Origin: Candidatus Baltobacteraceae bacterium
GTDB taxonomy: Bacteria > Vulcanimicrobiota > Vulcanimicrobiia > Vulcanimicrobiales > Vulcanimicrobiaceae
Direction of reading: 5' to 3'
DNA length: 32,110 nucleotides
Assembly (NCBI GenBank): GCA_036489885.1
Contig: DASXEW010000002.1
Coordinates: forward strand, 1 to 32,110
The translations under genes and the position numbers were made by a program. The notes under the pieces were generated by a model. That model ran no database searches, was not told the DNA's origin, and saw only the letters and a program-made list of their open reading frames with translations. Shown here in pieces: positions 3,980 through 18,643 of the stretch; position 1 is the stretch's first letter, and every line of letters begins with the position of its first letter.

Positions 3980-3984
3980 CTTCT
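3969..3984. other. Short inverted repeat at convergent stop codons
   Basis: AGAAG, six bases and CTTCT form a 5-bp inverted repeat spanning the sulfurtransferase stop and the trpA stop. No T-run follows on either strand, so it would be a weak bidirectional terminator at best. Confidence 0.25.
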
Positions 3985-4801
3985 AAGTCGCGCTCGCGGC
4001 AGCCGCCGGCGCGCGCTTGCAGGCGAGACGTAACAAACGCACCAGCCGTGTCGCAGCAGCCGCAGCATTGGGTGCACCTTTTGCGGAGGCGTACGCGTCA
4101 ACGATTGCACTGCCCACGATCACGCCGTCCGCGTAATCGCGAACTGCGACGATGTGCGGGGCTTTACTGATTCCGAAGCCTGCTGCGATCGGGCGTCCCG
4201 TCATCTTGCGCAGCTTCTCCAACTGTGCGCGCACCGCGCTCGTATCGGGCGCGTCCTTCGCACCCGTGACGCCGAGCCGCGAGACCAGATACGTAAACCC
4301 TTCGCTATCGCTCGCGATCTTGCGCATCCGTTCGTCCGGAGTGGTTGGTGAAACGAGCATCGGCATGATAAGGCCGTTCTTGCGGATAACTTCGCGAATC
4401 GGATCGAGTTCTTCGAGCGGAACGTCGGGAATGATCACGCCCACCGCGCCGTAACGTTTCGCGCCCATTGCGAACTTCTCGAGGCCATATTGCAGGATCG
4501 GATTTATATACGTGAAGAGCAGGACCGGAGCTTTTGTCTGTCCGACGAGGCGCATTACACCGTCGATAGTCGCTCCGGACGCGATCGCGCGCTGACTGCC
4601 GGCGGCGATCGTCGGACCGTCCGCAAGCGGATCTCCGTACGGAATCCCGAGCTCGACGATGTCAACGCCGGCTTCGACGACCGCGTCGATGACGGCGCGG
4701 CTCGTTTCCATGTCGGGATCGCCTGCGACGACATAACCGATCAGCGCGCAGCGGTCGTCCTTCTTTGCCTTTGCGAAAGCCTCGTCGAGTGCAGTTGCCA
4801 T
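3983..4801 (-). CDS. trpA: Tryptophan synthase alpha chain
   Basis: Alpha subunit of tryptophan synthase. It cleaves indole-3-glycerol phosphate to indole and glyceraldehyde-3-phosphate and passes indole to TrpB. The 272-aa TIM barrel shows the family motif VELGIPYGDPLADGPT with the catalytic pair Glu50 and Asp61 (Glu49/Asp60 in Salmonella). The conserved GFGIS and GSAIVDAY phosphate-site segments come later. The C-terminus ends in a short Ala/Lys-rich tail. Its ATG shares one base with the trpB stop (TAATG). It is the last gene of the trp operon. Confidence 0.96.
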   Translation of the reverse strand: MATALDEAFAKAKKDDRCALIGYVVAGDPDMETSRAVIDAVVEAGVDIVELGIPYGDPLADGPTIAAGSQRAIASGATIDGVMRLVGQTKAPVLLFTYINPILQYGLEKFAMGAKRYGAVGVIIPDVPLEELDPIREVIRKNGLIMPMLVSPTTPDERMRKIASDSEGFTYLVSRLGVTGAKDAPDTSAVRAQLEKLRKMTGRPIAAGFGISKAPHIVAVRDYADGVIVGSAIVDAYASAKGAPNAAAAATRLVRLLRLACKRAPAAAASAT

Positions 4802-6009
4802 TACGCGGGCACCGCTTCCGTGAACATCGCTTCAGCTTCGGCTTTTTCGATTTGCGTGACGTCTTTGTCACCACGTCCGCTCAAGTTGACCACGATCAGC
4901 GCCTCCTCGCCCCGTTCCTTTGCAAGCTTCTCTGCGTACGCAAGCGCGTGCGCCGATTCGAGCGCCGGAATGATTCCCTCCATGCTCGCGCACGCTTTGA
5001 ACGCAGCAATTGCCTCTGCGTCCGTGACGGCGACGTACTTTGCGCGACCGCTGTCTTTCAAAAACGCATGCTCGGGACCGACGCCCGGATAGTCTAAACC
5101 CGCGCTGACCGAATGCGTCGGCCGCACCTGGCCCTCGTTCGTTTGAAGCAAATACGAGCGCGACCCATGCAGCACGCCGATCGAGCCGGCCGCGAGTGCA
5201 GCCGCGTTCTCGGGCGTATTTAGTCCCTTACCGGCGGCCTCGACGCCCCACAAGTTCACGTTGCGGTCGTCAATGAATGCCGTGAAGATTCCCATCGCAT
5301 TACTGCCGCCACCGACGCAGGCTATGATGTCGCTCGGCAGGCGGCCGAACTTGCCTTGACATTGGACGCGCACTTCATCGCCGATGATGCGTTGAAATTC
5401 GCGAACCATGAACGGATACGGGTGCGCACCGACGACGCTTCCGATCACGTAGAAGGTGTCATCGCATTGTGATGCCCAGACGCGAAACGCTTCGTTCGTT
5501 GCATCTTTGAGCGTCTGAGTCCCACCCGTTACTTCATGAACCGTTGCGCCTAAGAGACGCATCACGTAAACATTGAGCGCTTGTCGCTCGACGTCGACGG
5601 CTCCCATGTAGACGTCGACGGGAAGGCCCAGCTTCGCGCCGATCGTCGCAACCGCAACGCCGTGTTGTCCGGCTCCCGTTTCTGCGATCAAGTGCGTCTT
5701 GCCCATGCGCTTCGCCAGAAGCGCTTGCCCGATCGTGTTATTGACTTTGTGCGCGCCGGTGTGATTGAGATCTTCGCGCTTGAAGACGATCGTAGCGGAG
5801 CGCGGTTGCGCGAAACGCTTTGCAGTCGTTATTGGTGACGGTCTCCCGACGTACTCGCTGAGTAGTCCGTGAAACTCATCCCAAAACGACGGATCGGCAA
5901 ATGCTTCCGACATTGCGGCTTCGACGTCCGCGAGCGGTTTGACGAGAACTTCGGGCACCCATCGTCCACCGAATTCGCCGAAGTATCCGCGCTCGTCAGG
6001 CTTGTGCAT
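4801..6009 (-). CDS. trpB: Tryptophan synthase beta chain
   Basis: PLP enzyme that condenses indole with L-serine to form tryptophan. The 402-aa product begins with the usual [10 protein letters not shown] segment. It carries the PLP lysine in HTGAHKVNN (Lys88), the catalytic Glu in AETGAGQHG and the phosphate-binding loop GGGSNAMG. Length is normal for the TrpB1 type that pairs with TrpA. Its ATG lies inside the end of trpF (14-nt overlap), and its stop overlaps trpA. Confidence 0.97.
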
Positions 6010-6628
6010 CTGCCTCCCTCACCGCGCGTACGAACGCGCGAACCTTTGTTTCATCTTTCCGGCCGCCGGTTTCGACCCCGGACCTAACGTCAACCGCATT
6101 CGGCCTCAACAGCCGAACGCATTCGCCGACGTTTTCGGCCGTAAGGCCGCCTGAAACTGCAAAGAAAGCGGGCTTTGACGCCTGGACGAGGTCTGACCAA
6201 GCAAGTGTGACCCCGGTCCCACCGCGTTTGTTCGGATGCCACGCGTCAAAAAGCGGAATCCCACGGATGTATTCGCCGGCGCGTGCAAACTGCCGGGCGT
6301 CTCCCTCAGGCCCCCCGAGGTGCAGTGCTTTTAGGTACACCGAATTTGCGAGGCGTTCACAAAGCGCGGGCGGCTCCTCGCCACTAAACTGAAGCCGAAT
6401 TCCCGGAATCGCCGTCTGAGCTTCTCGTACAACCGCCTCGCTCGGATCGACGAACACGCCGAAGATCGCAGCGAACGGCGGGAGACGCGAAGCGACGCGG
6501 GCGGCGACGTCGATTGAGACTTGCCGATCGCTCGGGGCGAAAATGAATCCGATCGCGTCGGCACCGGCGTCGAGCGCCAGCGCGGCATCGTCATAGGATG
6601 CACAGCCGCAGATCTTGATGCGTGTCAG
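5996..6628 (-). CDS. trpF: Phosphoribosylanthranilate isomerase, apparent CTG start
   Basis: Isomerises N-(5-phosphoribosyl)anthranilate to CdRP, the third step of the tryptophan pathway. The conserved N-terminal strand IKICGC, with catalytic Cys7, is encoded upstream of the first GTG (6457). No ATG, GTG or TTG lies in frame between 6457 and the end of trpC. The best start is therefore CTG at 6628-6626, which overlaps the trpC stop as CTGA, the same geometry as the ATGA and GTGA junctions elsewhere here. That gives 210 aa, the normal length. The general acid is Asp128 in PLFDAW, followed by the phosphate-site GGTGVTLAW. Starting at 6457 would delete 57 essential residues. Confidence 0.85.
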
Positions 6629-7428
6629 TGGAGTGCCGGGACCGCCTTGATTCCACCGATGAGCTCGGCCGGATCGGCCGCACGCATCAGCGTTTCACCG
6701 ATCAAGAATCCTCGCGCTCCGGCGGCGATCAGCTGGCGCGTATCTTCGGCTGAATTAATGCCGCTTTCGCTGATCGCGAGAACGCCCGCAGGCACGTGCG
6801 GCAGTAACTCCTCCGCTACAGCAAGATTCGTTTCGAACGTCCGTAGGTCACGCGTGTTGATGCCAAGCAGCGTCGCGCCGGCCGAGAGCGACCGCTCCAG
6901 CTCGCGCTCGTCGTGAATCTCGACGAGCACGTCCATCTGCCAGCGGTGCGCTTCACGCATGAGCATCGCAAGCGTCGCATCGTCGATTCCGGAGACGATT
7001 GCGAGAATTGCATCGGCACCATATGCCGCGGATTGCGCCACTTGATAAGGATCATTCAAGAAATCTTTGCGCAGGATCGGAAGCGCAGCCGCATCGCGAG
7101 CCTGATCGAGGTATGCGAGGTCGCCGAGAAAGTGATCCGTTTCGGTGAGCACGCTGATGGCATCGGCGCCCGCTTTTGCGTAACGCTCTGAGACGGCAGC
7201 AGGATCGAGATCGCGAACGATCAGACCGCGGGAGGGCGAGGCACGCTTGATCTCTGCGACGATCGCAGGTCCTCGTGAACGCTCGAGCGCACCGCGAAAC
7301 GAACGCCGTGCATGCATGCGCGATTCCGCGCGCGCCTCGACGCGCTCCAGCGGTTCGGCTTTGCGTTCTCGTTCGAGAACGGCAGCCTTCGACGCGTAAA
7401 GCTTGGCAAGAATATCGGTGTTGGTCAT
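6625..7428 (-). CDS. trpC: Indole-3-glycerol phosphate synthase
   Basis: Converts CdRP to indole-3-glycerol phosphate in tryptophan synthesis. The 267-aa TIM barrel shows IVAEIKRASPSRG with catalytic Lys61, then LRKDFLNDPYQ, EIHDERELE, GINTRDLRTFE and the SESGI segment before the C-terminal phosphate site. It is a stand-alone enzyme, not fused to TrpF as in E. coli. The ATG directly abuts the trpD TAG stop, and the TGA stop overlaps the trpF CTG. Confidence 0.96.
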   Translation of the reverse strand: MTNTDILAKLYASKAAVLERERKAEPLERVEARAESRMHARRSFRGALERSRGPAIVAEIKRASPSRGLIVRDLDPAAVSERYAKAGADAISVLTETDHFLGDLAYLDQARDAAALPILRKDFLNDPYQVAQSAAYGADAILAIVSGIDDATLAMLMREAHRWQMDVLVEIHDERELERSLSAGATLLGINTRDLRTFETNLAVAEELLPHVPAGVLAISESGINSAEDTRQLIAAGARGFLIGETLMRAADPAELIGGIKAVPALH

Positions 7429-8448
7429 CTATGCAAACTCCATTTGTGGACGGCTACGAAGCGCGTCCAACGCTCGAAGAGCATTCCCCTCAGAGATAGT
7501 GTTACGGGCAAGAACCAGACCCTCGTCAATCGAACCGGCACGCCCCGCAACGACGAATCCGAGCGCCGCGTTCAGGCAGACGACGTCAGACCTCGGGGAG
7601 AGCTCGCCCCCGAGAATCGCCAGCAGCGCTTGGGCGTTTGCGCGCGCATCGCCGCCGCGTAACTGCTCGAGCGAGGCGGAAACGCCGTAGTCGCCTGGGA
7701 TCAGCATCCACTCGCGCGCTCCGGCGCTATCGAATTGATACACCCGCGTCGGCACATCGCCCGCAATCTCGTCCAAACCGTTAGTCCCGTGGACGATTGC
7801 CCCGGCTGCTGAGCCCAATTCACGCAGCGCTTCGCCAAAGAGCGCTACCCAGTGCTCGACCGGGACACCGATCACCTGACGCTTCGCGCGCGCGGGGTTC
7901 GTGAGCGGCCCAAGCATGTTGAAAATCGTTCTTACTCGGAGCTCGCTGCGGATGGGGCCGATTGCCCGCATGGCCGGATGGTAGTGTTGCGCAAAAAGAA
8001 ATGCGACGTTGTGCTCCTTGAGCTGCCGGGCGGCTTCTTCGGGTGAAGCGCCGATGTGGACGCCGACGGCTTCCAAGACGTCCGCGCTCCCGCAACTGCT
8101 CGACGTTGCCCGGTTCCCATGTTTTGCCACGCGAAGTCCGGCGCCGGCCAAGATGAAGGCCACTGCAGTCGAGATGTTGATGGTGCCCGCCGCATCGCCG
8201 CCGGTTCCGCAGACGTCGACCACGTCCAGATCGTGCGGCACCTGTAAGCTGCGTGCGCGCATTGCGCGTGCTGCGCCGACGATCTCGGATACGGATTCAC
8301 CTTTGGTCGCGAGCGCCGCAACGAATGCGGACGCCTGTACCGCCGTGATCTTCTCGTCCATGATTGCGCCGAAGATCTCGGTCATTTGCTCGGCACTCAG
8401 ATCCTCGTGCCGGATGACTTGCCGCAGCAGCTCGCTGAAATTCCTCAC
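7429..8448 (-). CDS. trpD: Anthranilate phosphoribosyltransferase
   Basis: Transfers phosphoribose from PRPP to anthranilate, the second dedicated step of tryptophan synthesis. The 339-aa product has the PRPP-binding loop VCGTGGD (residues 79-85), the NIST motif, and the KHGNR...CGSADVLEA segment from residue 109 that contacts anthranilate and PRPP. The GTG start at 8448 is chosen because it gives the canonical N-terminus (RNFSELLRQV) and overlaps the trpG stop as GTGA. The frame is open for 60 codons upstream but there it lies within trpG. It is not fused to TrpG. Confidence 0.95.
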   Translation of the reverse strand: MRNFSELLRQVIRHEDLSAEQMTEIFGAIMDEKITAVQASAFVAALATKGESVSEIVGAARAMRARSLQVPHDLDVVDVCGTGGDAAGTINISTAVAFILAGAGLRVAKHGNRATSSSCGSADVLEAVGVHIGASPEEAARQLKEHNVAFLFAQHYHPAMRAIGPIRSELRVRTIFNMLGPLTNPARAKRQVIGVPVEHWVALFGEALRELGSAAGAIVHGTNGLDEIAGDVPTRVYQFDSAGAREWMLIPGDYGVSASLEQLRGGDARANAQALLAILGGELSPRSDVVCLNAALGFVVAGRAGSIDEGLVLARNTISEGNALRALDALRSRPQMEFA

Positions 8449-9023
8449 TTGGATGCGAGCCGCATGAAGTTCCGCGCCAGTTGCTCGCCGTGCTCCGTCA
8501 GCACCGACTCGGGATGAAACTGCACGCCATAAATCGGCAGCTCGCGATGCGCGACACCTTGAATCACGCCATCCTCGCTGGTTGCGAGCGTCCGCAAGGA
8601 GGGCGGGAACGATTGTGGCGTGACGCATAGCGAGTGATACCGCGTGGCGCCGAATGGCGAAGGAAGTCCGTCGAAGATCGCCGTTCCATCGTGAGCAATC
8701 GCCGAAACCTTACCGTGCATGAGCCGCGGCGCATGGTCGACGACCCCACCGAAAACGACTCCGATCGCTTGCGCGCCGAGACACACCCCGAGAATAGGGT
8801 GCGCATCGTGTGCAGCGCTGCGAATCAACGTGCACGTTACACCGGCATCTTCCGGCCGCCCCGGGCCCGGCCCAAACACGGTCGCATCGTAGGCGCGCAT
8901 CTTCGATTCGTCGAGCGTGGGGTCGTCGTTGCGCAGCACATCGACGTTCGCGCCCGCCTTCCCGAAGAGATGCGAAAGATTATATGTGAACGAGTCATAG
9001 TTATCGACCAGTAGAATGCGCAT
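8445..9023 (-). CDS. trpG: Anthranilate synthase glutamine amidotransferase subunit
   Basis: Class I glutamine amidotransferase supplying ammonia to TrpE for anthranilate formation; in some bacteria the same protein also serves PabB. The 192-aa product starts LLVDNYDSFTYNL and has the oxyanion GPGPGRPEDAG loop. The nucleophile is Cys81 in GVCLGAQ, and the His170/Glu172 pair lies in VQFHPESVLTEHG. The ATG at 9023 overlaps the trpE stop as TAATG; the open frame upstream lies within trpE. I see no separate pabB/pabA pair here. Confidence 0.95.
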   Translation of the reverse strand: MRILLVDNYDSFTYNLSHLFGKAGANVDVLRNDDPTLDESKMRAYDATVFGPGPGRPEDAGVTCTLIRSAAHDAHPILGVCLGAQAIGVVFGGVVDHAPRLMHGKVSAIAHDGTAIFDGLPSPFGATRYHSLCVTPQSFPPSLRTLATSEDGVIQGVAHRELPIYGVQFHPESVLTEHGEQLARNFMRLASK

Positions 9024-10435
9024 TACAATCCTAAAACGTTGCGCACGATCGCCGTTTTGTGGAGAATCTCGGCGTATTCGGCTTCGGGCTCGCTGTCGGC
9101 AACGATTCCGGCCGACGCTTGCCAATATGCGCGCCCATTCGAGACGGCGACGCAGCGCAGAACGATACAGGAATCCATGTCGCCATCAAAATCGATATGT
9201 GCGACGCTCCCGGCATAGAAGCCGCGCGCCACAGGTTCGAGCTCGTCGATCAGCTGCATCGCGCGAATCTTGGGAGCACCGGTAACGGTCCCAGCCGGGA
9301 AGGCCGCCGCAAAGAGATCGAGCGCATCTTTATCGGGTCGTAGCCGGCCGACCACGTTCGAGACGATATGCATCACGTGCGAGTAGCGCTCGATGATCAT
9401 CAATTCGTCGACGTGCACCGTGCCCGTTGCGGAAACCGCGCCCAAATCGTTGCGGCCGAGATCGACGAGCATGACGTGTTCCGCGCGTTCTTTTTCATTC
9501 GCGAGCAGCTCGACAGCGATTGCGTTATCGCCGGCCGCGTCCTCACCCCGCGAACGCGTTCCGGCCAGGGGGCGAAGCCGTGCCTTATCACCATCGAGGC
9601 GCACCAAAAACTCCGGCGAAGCGCCGAAGATCGTCCAGTCGTTCGTCTCGATGAAGAACATGTACGGTGACGGATTTCGCGCCCGAATCTGCCGGTAGAA
9701 ATCGAACGCGCTGCCTCCGGAAATCTCCGCACTAAAGCGGATTCCGACTTGCAGCTGGTACGCGTCCCCTTCGTAGATGTATTCTTTGGCGCGCGCGACC
9801 CGCTCCACAAATTCCGTCTTGGAGAGCGATTGCTTTACGGTGCCCTTTGCACCCACGCCGGCCGGCGTCGACGGTTTTGCTTCAAGCAGACGAGCAACGT
9901 AAGCGTCAAGGCGTGCGCCGACTGCGGCGCGTTCGCGTTCTTCCGTAGCCAAACCAACGAACGTCGTCTTGTGCGTAAAGTGGTCGAAAATCACCCACGT
10001 CCCCGGAATGAGAACGAGTGCATCCTGGAACGGCAAATCGGCGGGAGGTCTCGGACCGATACGTTCGAGCGAACGTGCTGCATCGTACGAGAACACGCAC
10101 ACCGCCGCGCCCGGGAACGGTACGTCCGGGGCGTTCATCTTATAGCGGCCGATCATGTCTCGGATCTCAGTCAGAAGATTGGCTGCGCCGTCGAACGAGC
10201 GCGCCTCGAGATAGTCCAGGCCTATCAACGAAAAGCGCGAGATGCGTTCGCTTCCTTCGACGCTCTCCAATAGACACGAACGCCCCGGTTGGGCCAGGGC
10301 GATGTACGCGGAGATCGGCGTGATCGTATCGGCGACCAGCTCGCGCGTGACGGGGTAGAGACTGAGTGTTTCGGCCTGAAGCCGGATGCGATTACTCCCT
10401 GACGAGTTCGAGTATCGCGAGTTCGGCGGCGTCAC
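9023..10435 (-). CDS. trpE: Anthranilate synthase component I
   Basis: Chorismate-using subunit that makes anthranilate with TrpG. The N-terminal Trp-feedback region contains LLESVEGSERISRFSLIG. The C-terminal catalytic domain shows LRPLAGTRSRG, LLANEKERAEHVMLVDLGRN, PAGTVTGAPKIRAMQ and ASAGIVADSEP. The start is uncertain. Conserved sequence begins at about YPVTRELVADTITPISAY, yet no ATG, GTG or TTG lies just before it. The nearest canonical start upstream is the GTG at 10435, inside rplQ, giving 470 aa. A near-cognate ATC at 10387 has a better-placed AGGGAG. Starting at the downstream TTG would remove conserved sequence. Confidence 0.9.
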   Translation of the reverse strand: MTPPNSRYSNSSGSNRIRLQAETLSLYPVTRELVADTITPISAYIALAQPGRSCLLESVEGSERISRFSLIGLDYLEARSFDGAANLLTEIRDMIGRYKMNAPDVPFPGAAVCVFSYDAARSLERIGPRPPADLPFQDALVLIPGTWVIFDHFTHKTTFVGLATEERERAAVGARLDAYVARLLEAKPSTPAGVGAKGTVKQSLSKTEFVERVARAKEYIYEGDAYQLQVGIRFSAEISGGSAFDFYRQIRARNPSPYMFFIETNDWTIFGASPEFLVRLDGDKARLRPLAGTRSRGEDAAGDNAIAVELLANEKERAEHVMLVDLGRNDLGAVSATGTVHVDELMIIERYSHVMHIVSNVVGRLRPDKDALDLFAAAFPAGTVTGAPKIRAMQLIDELEPVARGFYAGSVAHIDFDGDMDSCIVLRCVAVSNGRAYWQASAGIVADSEPEAEYAEILHKTAIVRNVLGL

Positions 10436-10748
10436 CGGGGCGGACTCGCGTTTTGGTGATACGCGTGTAGCCGCCCGGCCGATCTTTGAGCGATGGTGCG
10501 ATCTGATCGCAGAGTTTCTTGGTGACGCGAGGATCGAGCAAGTACGCCGCAACCAATCGACGCGAATGCAGATCGCCTCGACGCGCCTGTGTGATCAGGC
10601 GATCGACGATCTTCGAGGTTTCCTTGGCTTTGATCGTTGTCGTCTCGATCTTTTCATGGAGAAAGAACGACGTCGCTAGGTTGCGGAGCAGAGCCTTACG
10701 ATGTCCGTCGGTCCGCGAGAGACGTTTGTTTGCAATTTGGTGCGGCAT
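10392..10748 (-). CDS. rplQ: 50S ribosomal protein L17
   Basis: Large-subunit protein L17 of 118 aa, near the exit tunnel. The N-terminus MPHQIANKRLSRTDGHRKAL and the central FLHEKIETTTIKAKE segment are diagnostic. It follows rpoA after an 18-nt gap, the normal end of the alpha operon. Unusually, trpE begins within or immediately after it, with no terminator visible between. Confidence 0.97.
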   Translation of the reverse strand: MPHQIANKRLSRTDGHRKALLRNLATSFFLHEKIETTTIKAKETSKIVDRLITQARRGDLHSRRLVAAYLLDPRVTKKLCDQIAPSLKDRPGGYTRITKTRVRPGDAAELAILELVRE

Positions 10749-10766
10749 TACGGGTTTTGCTCGTCG

Positions 10767-11699
10767 CTACGATTGACGCAGCGACAGACCCCTTTCATCG
10801 AGCACGGCTTTGATCTCGTCGAGAGACTTCTTGCCGAAGTTGCGCATCTTGATGATCTCGTCCTCGGTCATATCGAGCAGCTCCGACACCTTCGAGATGC
10901 CGGCCCGCTTGAGACAGTTGAACGAGCGAACAGAGAGGTTGAGCGTCTCAACCGGGATATCCCATTCCGAAGCCGGAGCCGTCGCAACGGGTTTCTCTTC
11001 GGTGGAGAAATCCACGAAGAGCTGCATCTGATCGGTGAGCGTCTGAGCCGCGGCGGTTAGGGCGTCGTCCGGTGTGATCGATCCGTTGGTCTCGACCTCG
11101 AGCGTGAGACGATCAAAATCAACTGACTGACCAACGCGCGTGTCGTCGACCGTGAAATTCACTTTGCGGATCGGCGAGAAGATCGAATCCATCGGAATGA
11201 GCCCGATCATGTGCTCGACGTTACGCTGGCGATCGGCCGTGACGTAGCCGCGATGTTTCTCAATACCGATTTCCATCGAGAGCTTGGCGTCGCGTTTGGT
11301 CAGCGTCGCGATGTGATATTCGGGCTGCAAGATCTCGACATCGGCGTCAGGCGTGATGTCGCCCGCAGTGACTTCGCGGCTGCCCGAAACGGAAAGCGTG
11401 AGTACTTTCGGCGTATCGGCGTTCAGCTTGATCGGCAGACCCTTGAGATTGAGAAGCAGATTGGTCGTGTCTTCAACGACGCCCGGAATCGTCGAGAACT
11501 CATGCAATACGCCGTCGATCTTGACGTACGTGACGGCCGTACCCGGGATCGACGATAGCAGAATCCGGCGAAGCGCGTTGCCGAGCGTAATGCCAAAGCC
11601 ACGCTCGAGCGGTTCGATAACGAACTTTGCGTAGTTGTCCCGCCGCTCGCGAATCTCGATCTGCGCGCTTTGCGGGGTCTCTAAAACGGTCATGGTCAT
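10767..11699 (-). CDS. rpoA: RNA polymerase alpha subunit
   Basis: Assembly platform of RNA polymerase. The N-terminal domain has FVIEPLERGFGITLGNALRR and LLSSIPGTAV. The C-terminal domain (roughly residues 245-310), which binds UP elements and activators, has the helix-hairpin-helix segment SVRSFNCLKRAGI and RNFGKKSLDEIK. Length is 310 aa, standard. Two ATGs in frame (11699 and 11693) are possible starts; AAAGGA lies farther upstream. It follows rpsD after 88 nt in which I see no further gene. Confidence 0.97.
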   Translation of the reverse strand: MTMTVLETPQSAQIEIRERRDNYAKFVIEPLERGFGITLGNALRRILLSSIPGTAVTYVKIDGVLHEFSTIPGVVEDTTNLLLNLKGLPIKLNADTPKVLTLSVSGSREVTAGDITPDADVEILQPEYHIATLTKRDAKLSMEIGIEKHRGYVTADRQRNVEHMIGLIPMDSIFSPIRKVNFTVDDTRVGQSVDFDRLTLEVETNGSITPDDALTAAAQTLTDQMQLFVDFSTEEKPVATAPASEWDIPVETLNLSVRSFNCLKRAGISKVSELLDMTEDEIIKMRNFGKKSLDEIKAVLDERGLSLRQS

Positions 11700-11787
11700 G
11701 GGGTGGTGCGGTGTCCTTTGTTGCCGCTTGCGTTATCCGCCGATCCCCCAGGGTTCGACGATCGGACGTCTAGCGGCGGAGTCTCGC

Positions 11788-12444
11788 CTAGCGAGAGTAG
11801 TATTCTACGATGAGTTGCTCGTCGACGGGAGTGTCGATTTGCTCTCGTGAGGGGAGCGAGAGGACCTTTGCGGTCAGATCCGCCTCGTTCAGTTCGAGCC
11901 ATTCCGGATGCCGGCGGTTGCGCGCGGCCTCGGCATTGGCTTGGAAAACGGTCGAGTTCTTCGAACGCTCGGCAATCGTGATCACGTCACCCGCACGGAG
12001 CACGTACGATGCGACGTTGACGCGGCGGCCGTTGACGAGGAAGTGGCGGTGCGTCACGAGCTGACGCGCCTGCGCGCGCGACGATGCGAGGTTCAAACGG
12101 TAGACGACGTTGTCGAGCCGCCGCTCGAGCAGCTGAAGAAACGTGCGCCCGGTTTGTCCGGGTACGCGTGCTGCCTCGCGGAAGTAGTTCTCGAACTGCC
12201 GCTCGTGCACGCCATAGTACTTGCGCATCTTCTGTTTCTCACGCAGCTGACGGCCATACTCGGAGATCTTCTGACGCGTTTTGCCCTGCGTCTTCTGCCC
12301 CGGTGCGGTTCCGCGGCGTTCGACCGCGCACTTTTTAGACAAACACCGATCGCCCTTGAGGAACAGCTTGATTTTTTCACCGGTTTTGCTCGCCGACGTT
12401 TCGCGGCGGCAAATGCGGCAGACGGGACCTGTATATCGTGCCAT
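11788..12444 (-). CDS. rpsD: 30S ribosomal protein S4, zinc form
   Basis: Primary 16S-binding protein of 218 aa, also a translational repressor of the alpha operon in several bacteria. The N-terminus holds a zinc knuckle with Cys9, Cys12, Cys34 and Cys39 (CRICRR...RCLSKKC), which marks the C-plus form. The S4 RNA-binding domain follows ([28 protein letters not shown]). It lies between rpsK (9-nt gap) and rpoA. Confidence 0.97.
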
Positions 12445-12453
12445 CTTCCGCTC

Positions 12454-12849
12454 CTACACCCGTCGCCGTTTCGGTGGACGGCAACCGTTGTGTGGAATCG
12501 GCGTGACGTCTTTGATCAACGTGATCTCCAGACCAGCGGCCTGCAGCGAACGAATCGCGGCTTCGCGGCCTGCGCCCGGACCTTTGACGTACACTTCGCA
12601 CGACTTCATCCCGTGCTCCATCGCCTTACGCGCGACTGCTTCTGCAGCCATCTGCGCGGCGAACGGCGTCGATTTCTTCGAGCCTTTGAAACCAAGGTTT
12701 CCGGCTGACGCCCACGAGATTGTGTTGCCTAAGTTATCGGTGATGGTAACCAGCGTATTGTTGAAGGATGCGTGAATGTGCGCAACGCCGTTTACGACGT
12801 TTTTAAATTCGCGCTTCTTGCGCGTCTTCTGTTGTTTCTTGACTGCCAA
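12454..12849 (-). CDS. rpsK: 30S ribosomal protein S11
   Basis: Small-subunit platform protein of 131 aa. Recognised by [39 protein letters not shown] and the C-terminal [18 protein letters not shown]. The start codon is TTG at 12849 with GGAG 8 nt upstream. It would normally follow rpsM directly; here the two are separated by about 5.4 kb, and rpsK has its own leader of about 190 nt and a candidate promoter. Confidence 0.97.
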
Positions 12850-13043
12850 GTCGAGACTCCGTATTTATCCTGCCCCGGACGAAAACGAGCCGAGGTGTCG
12901 TCGCCTCGACCGAACACGCCTGACGGAGGCCGCTCGATCTGATACGCGATCCACTCGGCGAAAGCGGACCGGTTCTCTGCGCCCGGACGTGCCGCGGGCG
13001 GTCGCAAAGACACTGCCGGCCGCCCGAAGGCAGCCAACGTCGA
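12850..13043 (-). other. Structured 5' leader of the rpsK-rpsD-rpoA-rplQ-trp operon
   Basis: This is the non-coding stretch between the candidate promoter and rpsK. It can form a hairpin at 13019-13034 on the minus-strand RNA, with arms GCUGCC/GGCGGC, one G-U pair and a UUCG tetraloop. A second hairpin is at 12891-12908 (CGAGG/CCTCG). Open frames across it look non-coding. S4 or S11 autoregulation of such leaders is known in other bacteria, so a regulatory role is plausible but inferred. Confidence 0.4.
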
Positions 13044-13073
13044 AGTCTAACAAACGGCCCCGAGGCCTGTCAA
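13044..13073 (-). promoter_or_regulatory. Candidate promoter of the rpsK (alpha) operon
   Basis: The minus strand has a perfect -35 TTGACA (13073-13068), an 18-nt spacer and a -10 TAGACT (13049-13044). It lies just upstream of the rpsK leader and only 15 bp from the end of the insertion sequence. It would let the alpha and trp genes be transcribed independently of rpsM, from which they are now separated. Confidence 0.5.
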
Positions 13074-13080
13074 TCGGGAA

Positions 13081-13088
13081 GCTAGTGC
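13081..13088. repeat. Target-site duplication, left copy
   Basis: GCTAGTGC stands directly outside the left terminal repeat and is repeated exactly at 15363-15370. Eight base pairs is the duplication size known for IS1595-family elements. Confidence 0.95.
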
Positions 13089-13122
13089 GGGTGTGAATCA
13101 CTTGACGCAAGTGGCGTCGAAT

Positions 13123-13139
13123 CCTGTCCTCGTGACAGG
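13123..13139. other. Subterminal hairpin in the insertion sequence
   Basis: CCTGTC, a 5-nt loop and GACAGG form a perfect 6-bp inverted repeat 34 bp inside the left end. It may shield internal genes from outside transcription or take part in transposase binding; only the repeat itself is seen. Confidence 0.4.
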
Positions 13140-13150
13140 GCGGCGCGGCC

Positions 13151-13280
13151 ATGACCGAGCGGGGCCATCCCTTCGGCTGGCCGCCGATCTACCCGACTCA
13201 GGCGCAGTTCGAGGCGCTCGCGCCCGAGTGGCGAGAGAAGCTACGGACCGACTACGAGGCTGAGAAGGCTACTTATGTAT
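13151..13280 (+). CDS. Possible short passenger frame, extent uncertain
   Basis: An ATG at 13151 opens a plus-strand frame whose first roughly 40 codons look protein-coding: GC-rich third positions and an ordinary composition (IYPTQAQFEALAPEWREKLR). The frame stays open to 14056, but beyond about 13270 it runs antisense to two better candidates on the minus strand (a 59-aa frame and the HNH gene) and loses its coding look. It could be a remnant of a longer gene. I recognise no family. The coordinates mark only the plausible part. Confidence 0.25.
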
Positions 13281-13448
13281 CGTCAGTGCTTCAGCCAATT
13301 CTTCAAGAGTGCGGTGAAGCTCTGGGTGTGTTACGCCCGGAATCGGCGGTAGCTGAAGAACCTGGGTCTGGGCAATTACAAACAGAAGCTTCTCAATTCG
13401 AAGTAGATGCTCGTGCATCCACTTTTCAAGTTCCGGAACCTGTGCCAT
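13269..13448 (-). CDS. Small hypothetical passenger protein (59 aa)
   Basis: A 59-residue product with an amphipathic, helix-rich look (EKWMHEHLLRIEKLL, HRTLEELAEALT) and a PPIPGV linker. The ATG at 13448 has GGGAGGG about 6 nt upstream, one of the best ribosome-binding sites in the element; an upstream ATG at 13469 lacks one. It is divergent from the 50-aa frame at 13485. The function is unknown. The good site and protein-like composition are the only evidence. Confidence 0.45.
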   Translation of the reverse strand: MAQVPELEKWMHEHLLRIEKLLFVIAQTQVLQLPPIPGVTHPELHRTLEELAEALTIHK

Positions 13449-13484
13449 GCGAGTCCCTCCCGGAACCATGTTACAATGCCGAGC

Positions 13485-13637
13485 ATGAAGAGGGCACTGG
13501 AGCCGCTGATTCCCCTCGAACAGTTCAAGAAGTTAGTCGAGAAGATCGCGCATGTCCCGCGCTCAGTGATAGAGCGGGACAGTTCCAAGACGAAGCCCGA
13601 GCGCAAGAGCGGGCGAAAGAAGCGCGATTCGAGCTAG
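13485..13637 (+). CDS. Small basic passenger protein (50 aa)
   Basis: Short frame with a protein-like core (LEPLIPLEQFKKLVEKIA) followed by a Lys/Arg-rich tail (KPERKSGRKKRD), suggesting nucleic-acid contact. I have an impression of similar small proteins beside transposases but cannot verify it. A TACAAT box at 13472-13477 lies 7 nt before the ATG, a spacing that would give a leaderless transcript. An upstream ATG at 13476 is also in frame. The 3' end overlaps the end of the HNH-like gene by 4 bp in convergent orientation. Confidence 0.4.
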   Translation: MKRALEPLIPLEQFKKLVEKIAHVPRSVIERDSSKTKPERKSGRKKRDSS

Positions 13638-14362
13638 CTCCAGATCGCGCTGGAGAAAGCGGCGAACATCCCTTCGATTCCGCCGACCTCGTTGATCGAC
13701 TCGGAAGGCCAAATAACGTCGCGGGGTTGGACGGGCCAGACCTGCAAGGCTCTCTCGGCAGCGGCGTCATTCATCACGGACGGGTACTGCCGCCTTCGGC
13801 CGATGAACATTTCCATTCCGAGATAGAGCGCGCCAATCGCGAAATGAACGTGTTGGATGCCGACGGTTTGGCTGTAACCGATGAACCGCTCCTTATATTC
13901 GAAAATGTGCTCAGCTTTATGCCTCGCGCCGATCAGAACGTAAACATTGCTCGACGGTTGTTTTCGTTTGTAGAAGTCACGATAGTACGATTCTGGTATG
14001 AAATTCTCGGATGGGTGAAGGTGTTGGCATACCATTGCGGTCTTCACCGCCCATGACGCAACCGTAAGCTGATCAGCATATCCCATTTTAATTCCGACAT
14101 GTTCGGCATTTAGCATCGGACGTAAAATCTTGCCTGCGCTCACTTCAAGCCGACTCATCCAGCCATTATTGCAACTAGCGCAAAAGAATTTGACCTTGTG
14201 TACAAGCGGTTTTCCGCCGTGGGACCAGGCGAGTTTTTCATCCTTTTCAAAGTCCAATATGGCCACGCCACGCTTGGAGCGAAACTCGTTGCGAACCCAC
14301 TTTGCAAAGACGTGCTCGTTCGTAACTTTGTCTTTGCCACAGAACGCGCAGGAGCGCGCCAT
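13634..14362 (-). CDS. HNH-like zinc-finger passenger protein
   Basis: A 242-aa product whose N-terminal part has an HNH-like layout: CAFCGK (Cys5, Cys8), then TNEHVFAKW (Glu16-His17), then FFCASCNNGWMS (Cys61, Cys64, Asn65, Asn66). Paired Cys residues around EH and CNN resemble treble-clef HNH endonucleases, but a full catalytic His-Asn-His set is not certain. The C-terminal two thirds are unrecognised. The ATG follows the transposase stop after a single base (TAA C ATG), so the two are co-translated. IS1595 relatives are known to carry passenger genes; a role in transposition, homing or host defence is speculation. Confidence 0.7.
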   Translation of the reverse strand: MARSCAFCGKDKVTNEHVFAKWVRNEFRSKRGVAILDFEKDEKLAWSHGGKPLVHKVKFFCASCNNGWMSRLEVSAGKILRPMLNAEHVGIKMGYADQLTVASWAVKTAMVCQHLHPSENFIPESYYRDFYKRKQPSSNVYVLIGARHKAEHIFEYKERFIGYSQTVGIQHVHFAIGALYLGMEMFIGRRRQYPSVMNDAAAERALQVWPVQPRDVIWPSESINEVGGIEGMFAAFSSAIWS

Positions 14363-14363
14363 G

Positions 14364-15314
14364 TTATTTCTTGCTCGTCAGCGCCTTGTACGTCAGCCGC
14401 TTTTGATCCGAACCCTTGACCGCTTTCGCAAAACGCGGGCCGTCAGTATTCTCGCGCTCGTCAAACCGAAACACTTGCTCAGCGAGATACCGATCAAGAT
14501 GACGCGGGTTAACGTGCGTATACGTTCCGCCAATCGTGCGCTTGAGCACCGCCCAGAAGCATTCGATATTGTTCGTATGGACGTTACCGCGAACGTACTC
14601 GCGCAGTGTGTGATTGACCGACGAGTGTTGCACGAAATACTCGTTAATATGGACGTACGCGTTCGCGGAATCGGTATAGACCGTCGCGTCTTTATCAATG
14701 CTGTCGCGCAGTTTCGGAAGCAGCGTCTTTTGCTGCGCGTTGGGGATGACCCAAGCGCGAACGCGACCCTTGCGCTCGACCATTCCGAGGACCATCGTCT
14801 TTGCGTCCCGATGCTGCTTCGCAGTCATCTCGCGGCGCTGTTTGTTGGACTTGGTTTCCCAGCGTTGGCCGATGTAGGCTTCGTCAACCTCGACCGTCCC
14901 CGAAAGCGGGGTATCGAACGATTCGTGCGTCATCGCAAGGCGAATGCGTTGCAGCATGAACCATGCGGTCCGCTGCGTGACCTTAAGCGCCCGTCCGAGT
15001 TCGTGGGACGAGATTCCGTTACGGTTGCTCGCAAGGAGCCAGAAGGCCGGGAGCCACTTGTCGAAGCCAATCGGCGAGTCCTCAAAAACGGTCCCGACCT
15101 TGGCCGTGAACGACCGTTTGCACTCGTTGCAGTACCACCGGCGATAAGCCGCCATGTAGGCCACGTCCGCCGATCCGCACCCAGTACGCGGGCAGGCCAC
15201 GCCGTTTGGCCACCGGAGCTGAACGAAGAAGTCGTGGGCGACCTGGGTGTCCGCAAACTGGCGGACCGCTTCGATCATGGTCTCGGGGACTGGCTGCTCC
15301 GGTCGCTTGTCCAT
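14364..15314 (-). CDS. IS1595-family (ISXO2-like) transposase
   Basis: A 316-aa transposase. The N-terminal zinc ribbon has Cys41, Cys46, Cys62 and Cys65 (ACPRTGC...WYCNEC). An HTH-like segment follows (ISSHELGRALKVTQRTAWFML). The catalytic domain shows EVDEAYIG (Asp144), YTDSANAY (Asp215) and NNIECFWAVLKR (Asn249, Lys258), the DDNK/E arrangement of the IS1595 family. Length is normal and no frameshift is visible, so the element is probably active. It starts 48 bp inside the right terminal repeat. Confidence 0.95.
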   Translation of the reverse strand: MDKRPEQPVPETMIEAVRQFADTQVAHDFFVQLRWPNGVACPRTGCGSADVAYMAAYRRWYCNECKRSFTAKVGTVFEDSPIGFDKWLPAFWLLASNRNGISSHELGRALKVTQRTAWFMLQRIRLAMTHESFDTPLSGTVEVDEAYIGQRWETKSNKQRREMTAKQHRDAKTMVLGMVERKGRVRAWVIPNAQQKTLLPKLRDSIDKDATVYTDSANAYVHINEYFVQHSSVNHTLREYVRGNVHTNNIECFWAVLKRTIGGTYTHVNPRHLDRYLAEQVFRFDERENTDGPRFAKAVKGSDQKRLTYKALTSKK

Positions 15315-15362
15315 GACCCAAGCATACCTAACCAGGCTACTTTAGTCAAGTGATTCACACCC

Positions 15363-15370
15363 GCTAGTGC
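15363..15370. repeat. Target-site duplication, right copy
   Basis: GCTAGTGC is identical to 13081-13088. On the minus strand it contains the TAG stop of the adjacent 108-aa gene, so insertion duplicated the stop codon and left that protein intact. Confidence 0.95.
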
Positions 15371-15690
15371 ATCCCCGAGGTGAACGGGTTCGCGGGGGCA
15401 TTAGCGCTCGGCGCGATCACCGGCTGCGGCTGCGAACCGGACTGTGCTTGGGATTGGTCCGTGGACACGGGCTGCGGCGTCACCGCGGGTGCCGCGGAGG
15501 TCTGGCTCCCTCCCCCGGCGCCGTATATACCCTCGGAATCGACCGGCTGACCCGGCGTCGCCTGCGCGACAGGCGCGCCGGCCACGACGCCTCCGCCGGA
15601 GTTCGCGTACGCCGAGATCACCATTATAAAGACGGCGACTGCGATCACCCCGCTGATGATCGAGATAAGCCCCAGCCCACGGTTAGACAT
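15364..15690 (-). CDS. Small membrane-anchored protein with Pro/Ser/Gln-rich tail
   Basis: A 108-aa protein of unknown function. Residues about 6-28 form one hydrophobic helix (LGLISIISGVIAVAVFIMVI). A low-complexity tail rich in Gly, Ala, Pro, Gln and Ser follows and ends NPFTSGMH. The topology is likely a short cytoplasmic end with an extracytoplasmic tail. It follows a second, similarly built gene after 68 nt, where a GGGGC/GCCCC hairpin lies (15707-15721 region). The IS inserted exactly at its stop codon. Confidence 0.7.
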   Translation of the reverse strand: MSNRGLGLISIISGVIAVAVFIMVISAYANSGGGVVAGAPVAQATPGQPVDSEGIYGAGGGSQTSAAPAVTPQPVSTDQSQAQSGSQPQPVIAPSANAPANPFTSGMH

Positions 15691-15758: not shown

Positions 15759-16541
15759 TTAGTGCCCCGAACCGCCGCTACCCGCGCTGGCACCGGTTCC
15801 AGCAGACCCGGTCGATCCCGTACCGCTCGCTGCACCGCTCGTCGTCGAACCACCCGTCGTCGCGCTACCGTTTGTGGCGCTACCGTTTGTGGCGCTGCCG
15901 TTCGTAGCACTACCGTTGGTCGATGCGCCGTTTGCGCCCGTGCCGGCATTGCTAGTTGTGCCGGCCGCATTGTTCGTCGTGGCGCCATTCGTTGTATTGG
16001 TCGTCGGCGCATTGTTCGTTGTGTTGGCGCCGCTTGTGTTGGCGCCGCTTGTGTTGGCGCCGCTCGTGTTCGTGCCGTTTGTCGTTGTCGTTGTCGTTGT
16101 CGTCGAAGCTGCTCCGCCGGAGCCGCCCGCCGCGGTATTTGTCGAATTGCTCGCGCCGCTACCGGTCGGGCCTTGTGCGCCCGAGGTGTCGCTTCCGCCG
16201 GCGTTTGTCGTCGCGCTGGTATTGCTCGTCGTAGCGCCGCTTCCGCCGCCGCCGGAATTATCGCTACCGGTTGTCGTCGTTGTGCTTCCGCCGGTATTCG
16301 TTGCGTTGCCGTTCGCCGCATACGGAAGCGCGGCGGAACCCGCATTCTCACCACTGCGCCACGCAACCATCATCAATAAAACGATGACGATCGCGACGCC
16401 CGCAACAAGCGCATAGAACTCACGTCCTGTCCATCGCGTGACGGGATTTTCGAGCTGCCCTTTTTTGGCATCCATCTGCGCGAGCCAGTTCTTGAAACGC
16501 GTGAGCGGTCCGGGGTTGGCGGGTCCAGTTGCAGTAGCCAT
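15759..16541 (-). CDS. Membrane-anchored Thr/Ser/Gly/Asn-rich repeat protein
   Basis: A 260-aa protein of unknown function. The basic N-terminal part (about 45 aa) precedes one hydrophobic helix (FYALVAGVAIVIVLLMMVAW). The remaining 190 residues are almost only Thr, Ser, Gly, Asn and Ala, with tandem five-residue repeats NTSGA and GSATN. This looks like an extended, probably exported or surface linker. It lies 39 nt after the acyl-CoA-dehydrogenase-like gene on the same strand. Thr/Ser-rich tails can be glycosylated, but nothing here proves it. Confidence 0.7.
   Translation of the reverse strand: MATATGPANPGPLTRFKNWLAQMDAKKGQLENPVTRWTGREFYALVAGVAIVIVLLMMVAWRSGENAGSAALPYAANGNATNTGGSTTTTTGSDNSGGGGSGATTSNTSATTNAGGSDTSGAQGPTGSGASNSTNTAAGGSGGAASTTTTTTTTNGTNTSGANTSGANTSGANTTNNAPTTNTTNGATTNNAAGTTSNAGTGANGASTNGSATNGSATNGSATNGSATTGGSTTSGAASGTGSTGSAGTGASAGSGGSGH
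15864..15925. repeat. 15-bp tandem repeat encoding GSATN units
   Basis: About four copies of a 15-bp unit (CTACCGTTTGTGGCG and variants on the plus strand) encode successive GSATN pentapeptides on the minus strand. Being a multiple of three, copy-number change would lengthen or shorten the tail without frameshift. Confidence 0.7.
16021..16070. repeat. 15-bp tandem repeat encoding NTSGA units
   Basis: Three near-identical copies of GTGTTGGCGCCGCTT plus a partial copy encode NTSGA pentapeptides on the minus strand. The copies are nearly perfect, suggesting recent duplication or slippage. Confidence 0.75.
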
Positions 16542-18238: not shown

Positions 18239-18643
18239 CTACTTCTTGGGTCCGGTCGCTGCTCCGGCAGCTGCCTTCTTGCGGCCGCCGACGGTCTTCT
18301 TCGGACCTTTGCGCGTGCGTGCATTGGTCTTCGTGCGTTGTCCGCGAACCGGGAGTCCGCGGCGATGCCGCAGCCCGCGATAGCTTCCGATATCCGCCAG
18401 CCGTTTGATATTGGCGGACAAGTCGCGACGCAGGTCGCCTTCGACTTTGATGCCGAGCGCTTCGATTTCATCGCGCAGCTTACGCTCGTCGGCCTCGGTC
18501 AGGTCCTTCACGCGCGTGTCGGGATTGACCCCGGCGGCCTTGAGGATTCGTTTTGCTGTCGGCAATCCGATCCCATAGATATAGGTCAAGCCGATTTCGA
18601 CGCGCTTGTCGCGGGGCAGATCGACGCCTTCAATACGAGCCAT
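18239..18643 (-). CDS. rpsM: 30S ribosomal protein S13
   Basis: Head protein of the small subunit, 134 aa. Recognised by [32 protein letters not shown] and the C-terminal [18 protein letters not shown] with a basic tail. The tail is slightly longer than usual ([16 protein letters not shown]). The ATG overlaps the rpmJ stop as TAATG. The expected next gene, rpsK, is displaced by about 5.4 kb. Confidence 0.97.

Follow-up and report, generated by a model that had tools for sequence, protein, structure and literature searches.

Transporter ISs have been said to blur the line that divides insertion sequences from transposons. In the IS1595 family, which has seven named groups, they were reportedly described, as tIS, by Siguier et al. 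in 2009, with the ISNha5 and ISNwi1 groups. Other mobile DNAs offer points of comparison: the IS231-MIC231 modular elements, which have an IS4-type transposase, combine IS ends with interchangeable internal modules, and Tn7-like elements are far larger and multi-gene. Three publications cover the IS1595 family, tIS and their passenger genes (PMC8101967, PMC11891212, PMC3129680), and the first of these places an N-terminal zinc ribbon in all IS1595 groups except IS1016.

Here we follow up a preliminary description of a 32,110-bp stretch of DNA from a Candidatus Baltobacteraceae bacterium (the window), in which an intact IS1595 element had been placed between the end of one gene and the promoter of the rpsK operon. 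Our analysis makes it very likely that the whole element is an intact cut-and-paste IS1595 transporter IS, consisting of a transposase, a modular cargo and a convergent small gene, and cleanly inserted by the rpsK operon.

Results

The element and its insertion site

A search for terminal repeats and an 8-bp duplication around the transposase of the window returned one candidate pair only, which delimits an IS1595-family element of 2274 bp (13089..15362, transposase sense on the minus strand). The repeat GGGTGTGAATCACTTGAC is identical at 18/18 positions between the transposase end (15345..15362, minus strand) and the distal end (13089..13106, plus strand). Exact copies of the target-site duplication GCTAGTGC flank the element on the rpsK side (13081..13088) and on the side of the upstream gene (15363..15370), so that both the perfect 18-bp repeats and the exact 8-bp duplication were recovered as first described. 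In a chance control, repeats of at least 13/18 with a duplication of at least 7/8 were found in 23 of 46 real pairings versus 3 of 46 decoy pairings, the decoys being of the same terminal-repeat family as the real ones; the pair in the window, at 18/18 and 8/8, is well beyond the decoy level.

The upstream gene encodes 108 aa (15364..15690, minus strand), and its frame ends in a TAG within GCTAGTGC, which bears out the claim that the duplication keeps this stop codon. On the other side, the TTGACA box of the rpsK operon starts at 13073 (minus strand), and therefore 15 bases separate it from the end of the element (8 of duplication plus 7), the distance given before. The element entered the gap that separates the −35 box of the rpsK-rpsD-rpoA-rplQ-trp operon from the end of the 108-aa gene, with a duplication of 8 bp; as a result, the 108-aa gene, the gene on the rpsK side and the core promoter all survive. 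The insertion as observed is true and, by itself, ordinary, and provides an example of an element settling beside an essential operon without breaking it. Farther upstream (15759-16541, minus strand) lies a gene for a 260-aa protein with a membrane-like stretch followed by a long low-complexity Gly/Ser/Thr/Asn repeat tail, which had no Pfam match.

The check that had been proposed, a relative with an empty site, succeeded within the same genus. Genome G001 aligns at 82% through the joined flanks (locus L003; query positions 4-1108, with the junction at 1080), and a homologue of the 108-aa gene at this site ends in NPFTTGISTR, its stop codon lying within TTGACA. No IS1595 transposase was found in G001, a genome that is 80% complete. 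Because G001 is only this complete and 83% identical in matched DNA, the comparison shows the insertion and leaves the event undated. Of the "recent event" in the preliminary description, the insertion thus stands and the date does not, since the intact repeats are all that speaks for "recent". Its own genome (3.48 Mb, 4 contigs, 95.9% complete) holds the element once, which rules out a multi-copy IS there; as it is single-copy, we can only infer its activity.

Possible consequences for the rpsK operon

The promoter next to the element, TTGACA-N18-TAGACT (13044..13073, minus strand), is conserved. Of 28 usable leaders (the window and 27 relatives, with L016 and L023 left out as too short or as having rpsK misplaced), 23 have a TTGACn-N17/18-TAnnnT sequence no more than 330 bp from rpsK, compared with a mean of 0.05 and at most 2 in shuffled leaders. 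On these counts the promoter call is sound and the promoter, as proposed, is real. The genes downstream were confirmed as rpsK, rpsD, rpoA, rplQ and trpE/G/D/C/B, and trpF and trpA were read by eye. The alpha operon is split (3983-12849 and 18239-18643), with rpsM (18239-18643) several genes upstream of rpsK, and a whole trp operon follows rplQ.

The element had also been thought to replace any UP element, and here our results differ. The duplication keeps the native positions −36 to −50, and in the relatives the 21 bp that precede the −35 box are not A+T-rich, with a mean A+T content of 0.35 versus 0.35 for the rest of the leader. As this segment shows no A+T signal, we rejected the idea that the IS removed an UP element, and the regulatory claim is for this reason only partly supported. 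One could still argue that a plain IS insertion retunes the operon, either by removing an upstream activating sequence or by supplying read-through from the transposase and HNH genes, and so alters rpoA and trp expression. The 15-bp distance fits such an effect, as do the co-orientation of transposase and cargo with rpsK, the lack of a minus-strand terminator-like site between 13089 and 13634, and the empty allele, where the upstream gene abuts the rpsK promoter. However, the restored −36 to −50 segment, the relatives that lack A+T enrichment and the intact rpsK core promoter and leader all weigh against retuning, which we consider improbable. In the empty allele the 108-aa gene reaches almost to the rpsK −35 box, and the effect of the insertion on the operon is probably small, mainly a loss of read-through from this gene; a change in rpoA or trp expression is possible but unsupported.

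The rpsK leader has a feature of its own. Just before rpsK (12862-12911, minus strand) we observed a conserved GTCGAGGCGACGACA, a hairpin and AGGATAAA. Of 60 related genomes, 32 contain the 15-mer of this element, in a single copy apart from G021, which has two. The 5-bp stem of the hairpin is present in 21/26 leaders versus 10% of shuffles, and includes compensatory stems such as CCGCT/AGCGG, CTGCG/CGCAG and CCGGC/GCCGG. An Rfam scan of the window, the leader element included, gave no match. This element is possibly a ribosomal-protein autoregulatory leader.

Transposase and cargo of the element in the window

The transposase is intact and has 316 aa with a zinc ribbon and a DDE domain (14364..15314, minus strand). 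It matches the catalytic-domain model DDE_Tnp_IS1595 (PF12762) over its whole length (1.5e-42, 1-153/153), the N-terminal Zn_ribbon_IS1595 (PF12760; 9e-9) and the NCBIfam model transpos_IS1595 (NF033547; 1.2e-56, 192 bits with a cutoff of 75). As expected of IS1595, an 8-bp duplication on both sides accompanies terminal inverted repeats that match at 18/18. A promoter-like sequence for the transposase, TTGACT-N17-TATGCT (15321..15349, minus strand), takes its −35 box from the TTGAC of the terminal repeat, an arrangement that recurs in most sister elements: the majority of those that could be delimited have TTGAC at repeat position 14 and a −10-like hexamer 17 nt later. With repeats, duplication and full transposase all recovered from the sequence, an intact IS1595-family element is indeed located where it had been placed. 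The label "IS1595 element" holds for the family and fails for a plain IS, because the cargo gene, and with it a conserved small gene that converges on it, had been missed.

The cargo gene (13634..14362, minus strand) begins 1 bp after the transposase stop and encodes 242 aa. The protein has paired CxxC, EH and CxxCN motifs, which we take to be an HNH nuclease signature, and residues C5, C8, E16, H17, C61, C64 and N65 are invariant in 4 relatives. It scored 18.2 bits against PF14279 (HNH_5), below the cutoff of 27.5, and a PDB search gave weak sequence matches only, to unrelated enzymes. The AlphaFold model was of no use (pLDDT 36), and comparison with defence families gave no match. Clear relatives were found in 2 of 148 other phylum genomes (G095 and G012), with weak matches in 3 more, and a phage and plasmid search yielded only distant matches of less than 60% identity. 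The relative in G095 sits inside a sister element. The one in G012 adjoins a DNA methyltransferase-like gene (read by eye), with no element found there; at this locus (L069, 2650-4989) the HNH gene follows about 9 bp after its neighbor, outside any detected element. Given the HNH motif, the methyltransferase-like neighbor in G012 and the toxin-like cargo in some sister elements, our leading but tentative suggestion is that the cargo may be a nuclease that acts in defence or helps the element to persist.

The HNH-type gene at 13634-14362 lies between the terminal repeats and is replaceable in sister elements, as in a tIS, and would presumably be dispensable for transposition. Because the element carries this cargo inside its repeats, along with a small convergent gene that is conserved, we classify it as a transporter IS and reject the plain-IS reading. 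On the strand of the small gene there is also a coding stretch beginning HPFGWPP (13151..13484, plus strand), with dN 0.46 and dS 2.03 against the copy in L089 over 74 codons. Its frame stays open to 14056, and a single 301-aa gene spanning 13151-14056 was rejected: the second half is antisense to the cargo, and coding constraint is confined to the first part.

Sister elements and their cargo

Relatives of the transposase at E≤1e-30 were found in 32 of 149 phylum genomes. A scan of the genome collection yielded 23 loci, of which several belong to other phyla and some duplicate the same places; the duplicate loci L088, L090 and L126 (equal to L070, L072 and L089) were removed before counting. 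We examined 58 distinct transposase places, of which 23 were delimited by repeats plus duplication, 21 of these from Eremiobacterota. The other 35 were undelimited owing to contig ends, decay or other boundaries, and the delimited set excludes places with repeats of 12/18 or less as well as L106, which has 13/18 with 7/8 and lacks the family motif. All 23 delimited elements have 0.9-2.9 kb behind the transposase hit, and none is transposase-only. One further delimited element, L084, carries a D12 methyltransferase.

The cargo of the delimited elements is diverse, comprising HNH-type genes (the window and L068), a SocA/Panacea antitoxin (L129, L130), a PIN protein (L136), a ClpP-like SDH protease domain (L128.1) and a family we leave unnamed, with HNxRxxLD and DKHR motifs read by eye (L075, L077, L078, L089). 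This family recurs in the undelimited L072, L128.0 and L140, and had no Pfam match where scanned (L077 was outside the scan). Other undelimited elements carry DUF3800 (L079), NYN (L144), dCTP-deaminase-like (L133) and methyltransferase (L083) genes. Pfam matches above cutoff were obtained for 4 of 13 scanned cargo proteins from the 23 delimited elements (5/14 with L084), and 9 sister-element cargo proteins gave none above cutoff. PADLOC matched 2 of 8 cargo proteins, a methyltransferase and one weak candidate, both from undelimited elements, and a "defence-rich" cargo is a lead and not a count. A HEPN-like label for one cargo family was dropped, the R-x4-H motif being absent in several members.

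Two further observations concern the sister elements. L082, L134, L135 and L137 form a sub-clade where no small gene was detected and the target site is palindromic, unlike that of the window's group; the duplications are ACAACTGT in L135 and L137 and ACAGATGT in L082, and in L134, which is undelimited, ACAGTTGT and ACAACTGT border repeat-like sequences, at two places. G092 (L128, 1-9600) has a pair of adjacent, related IS1595 elements that differ in cargo, and the terminal repeat of one can be seen in the flank of its neighbor.

Exchange of cargo between elements

The clearest case comes from two elements of one genus (g24), L068 and L128.0. Their DNA is 89% identical over element positions 1-965, the transposase end; the cargo then shows no blastn similarity, and identity returns at 85% in the small gene and 92% at the far end. 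The cargo of L068 is the HNH gene, and that of L128.0 a member of the unnamed HNxRxxLD/DKHR family. L128.0 is undelimited, being at a contig end. Because the two elements are alike up to the end of the transposase and again from the small gene onward, with unrelated cargo between, we conclude that the cargo was exchanged as a module. Each joint recurs in another lineage: the window and L068 share 67% identity across 1.8 kb that takes in HNH, and L128.0 and L075 share 73% across 1.8 kb that takes in the unnamed cargo. On the transposase tree, from which loci with partial transposases or no clean transposase frame were left out, the window, L070 and L089 form one 99/99 group with three cargo types.

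Could this diversity instead have arisen by ancient vertical divergence and separate captures of genes, without elements exchanging cargo? HNH and similar cargo families do occur outside elements, as at L069 beside the DNA methyltransferase-like gene. Yet a transposase that is 89% identical with other cargo, similarity that resumes on the far side, and joints each found twice in different transposase lineages leave independent capture very improbable. Exchange as a module would probably run by recombination within the conserved transposase end and the small-gene end. Near-identical engines with different cargo are a natural series that makes passenger gain and swap in simple ISs directly testable.

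A convergent small gene

The small gene in the window, beginning MKRALEPLIPLEQFKKLVEKI (13485..13637, plus strand; alternative start at 13476), converges on the cargo, and its TAG shares the word CTAG with the cargo stop. We first found such genes in 8 elements; the protein is 44-58 aa, with (M)KKPLEPLIPLxxxKxVxxIxxVPK and a basic tail, and we refer to it as PLIPL. A profile built from these 8 gave 25 matches at E<0.01 in the set that we examined, counting the original 8, and for 16 matches E was below 1e-7. In the strong set the gene and the transposase lie on opposite strands, with the exception of L076, where they share a strand. Across the phylum there are 24 matches in 20 of 149 genomes: 18 adjoin an IS1595 transposase or its fragment and 6 have no transposase nearby. 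The gene was not found in the fetched elements of other phyla, nor on plasmids (one query), and there was no match in NCBIfam (8 members) or Pfam (1 member).

An extended −10 box, TGTTACAAT (13469..13477, plus strand), ends 7 nt before the ATG at 13485. TGnTAnnnT was read by eye 6-8 nt before the small-gene start in 13 of 15 cases, against a background of 17 among 1977 ATG/GTG codons in the same elements, the 13 small-gene cases included. The usual spacing between a −10 box and the transcription start is 7 nt, so the transcript would begin at the start codon, and on this sequence pattern the gene is probably leaderless. In 5 pairs its dN/dS is 0.40-0.53. AlphaFold predicts two helices (mean pLDDT 69, pTM 0.30).

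The gene might be an antitoxin or immunity gene for the cargo and not a part of the transposition module. It is convergent with and adjacent to the cargo, the two stops overlap in one 4-nt YTAR word in 7 of 12 placeable elements with both cargo families represented, and several cargos resemble toxin-antitoxin proteins (Panacea antitoxin, PIN, NYN). Against this, the small gene stays with the transposase while the cargo changes (L068 versus L128.0), it occurs beside at least 4 unrelated cargo types, and it clusters on the transposase tree, with 4 changes versus 15 when shuffled, all of which makes an antitoxin unlikely. Because the gene follows the transposase tree and not the cargo, we prefer a transposition accessory or regulator, although this is a guess from sequence patterns.

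Discussion

In the arrangement that the sequence shows, the transposase has a promoter-like sequence whose −35 box is in the terminal repeat, the cargo comes directly behind, and the convergent PLIPL gene, close to the far end, has an extended −10 box of its own; sister elements keep transposase and small gene while holding unrelated cargo. We speculate that the Eremiobacterota IS1595 elements may be a cassette-exchange system, in which a fixed transposase and a fixed leaderless PLIPL partner frame a single slot for toxin- or nuclease-like cargo swapped by recombination. As part of the same speculation, for which we claim less than an even chance, the slot would be bounded by the transposase stop and the shared 4-nt palindromic stop, and PLIPL would be a new dedicated transposition partner. 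If so, elements of 2-4 kb would be minimal shuttles of defence genes. As far as our searches show, PLIPL is a conserved gene that has not been described before as a part of such an element; titles and abstract openings in the open-licence PMC literature contained no report of the small gene or of IS1595 cargo exchange.

How do these elements compare with known systems? They share interchangeable internal modules with the IS231-MIC231 elements, which have no known link to the PLIPL gene. Tn3-family transposons (PMC7157771) are alike in holding toxin-antitoxin(-like) passengers inside the transposition module, but have another transposase family and mechanism, whereas the elements here have a single compact slot in which the cargo changes. 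Transposons of the Tn7-like kind that carry defence cargo are likewise mobile carriers of diverse genes, defence among them (PMC8649781); the elements here are 2-4 kb with one or two cargo genes. The nearest counterpart is the IS1595 tIS, with which the element in the window shares a zinc-ribbon IS1595 transposase, an 8-bp duplication and a passenger unrelated to transposition. Judged by the passages on tIS in the three publications cited above, it is set apart by its HNH-type cargo, by the conserved small gene that runs convergent to it and has an extended −10 box, and by the swap of cargo between near-identical transposases.
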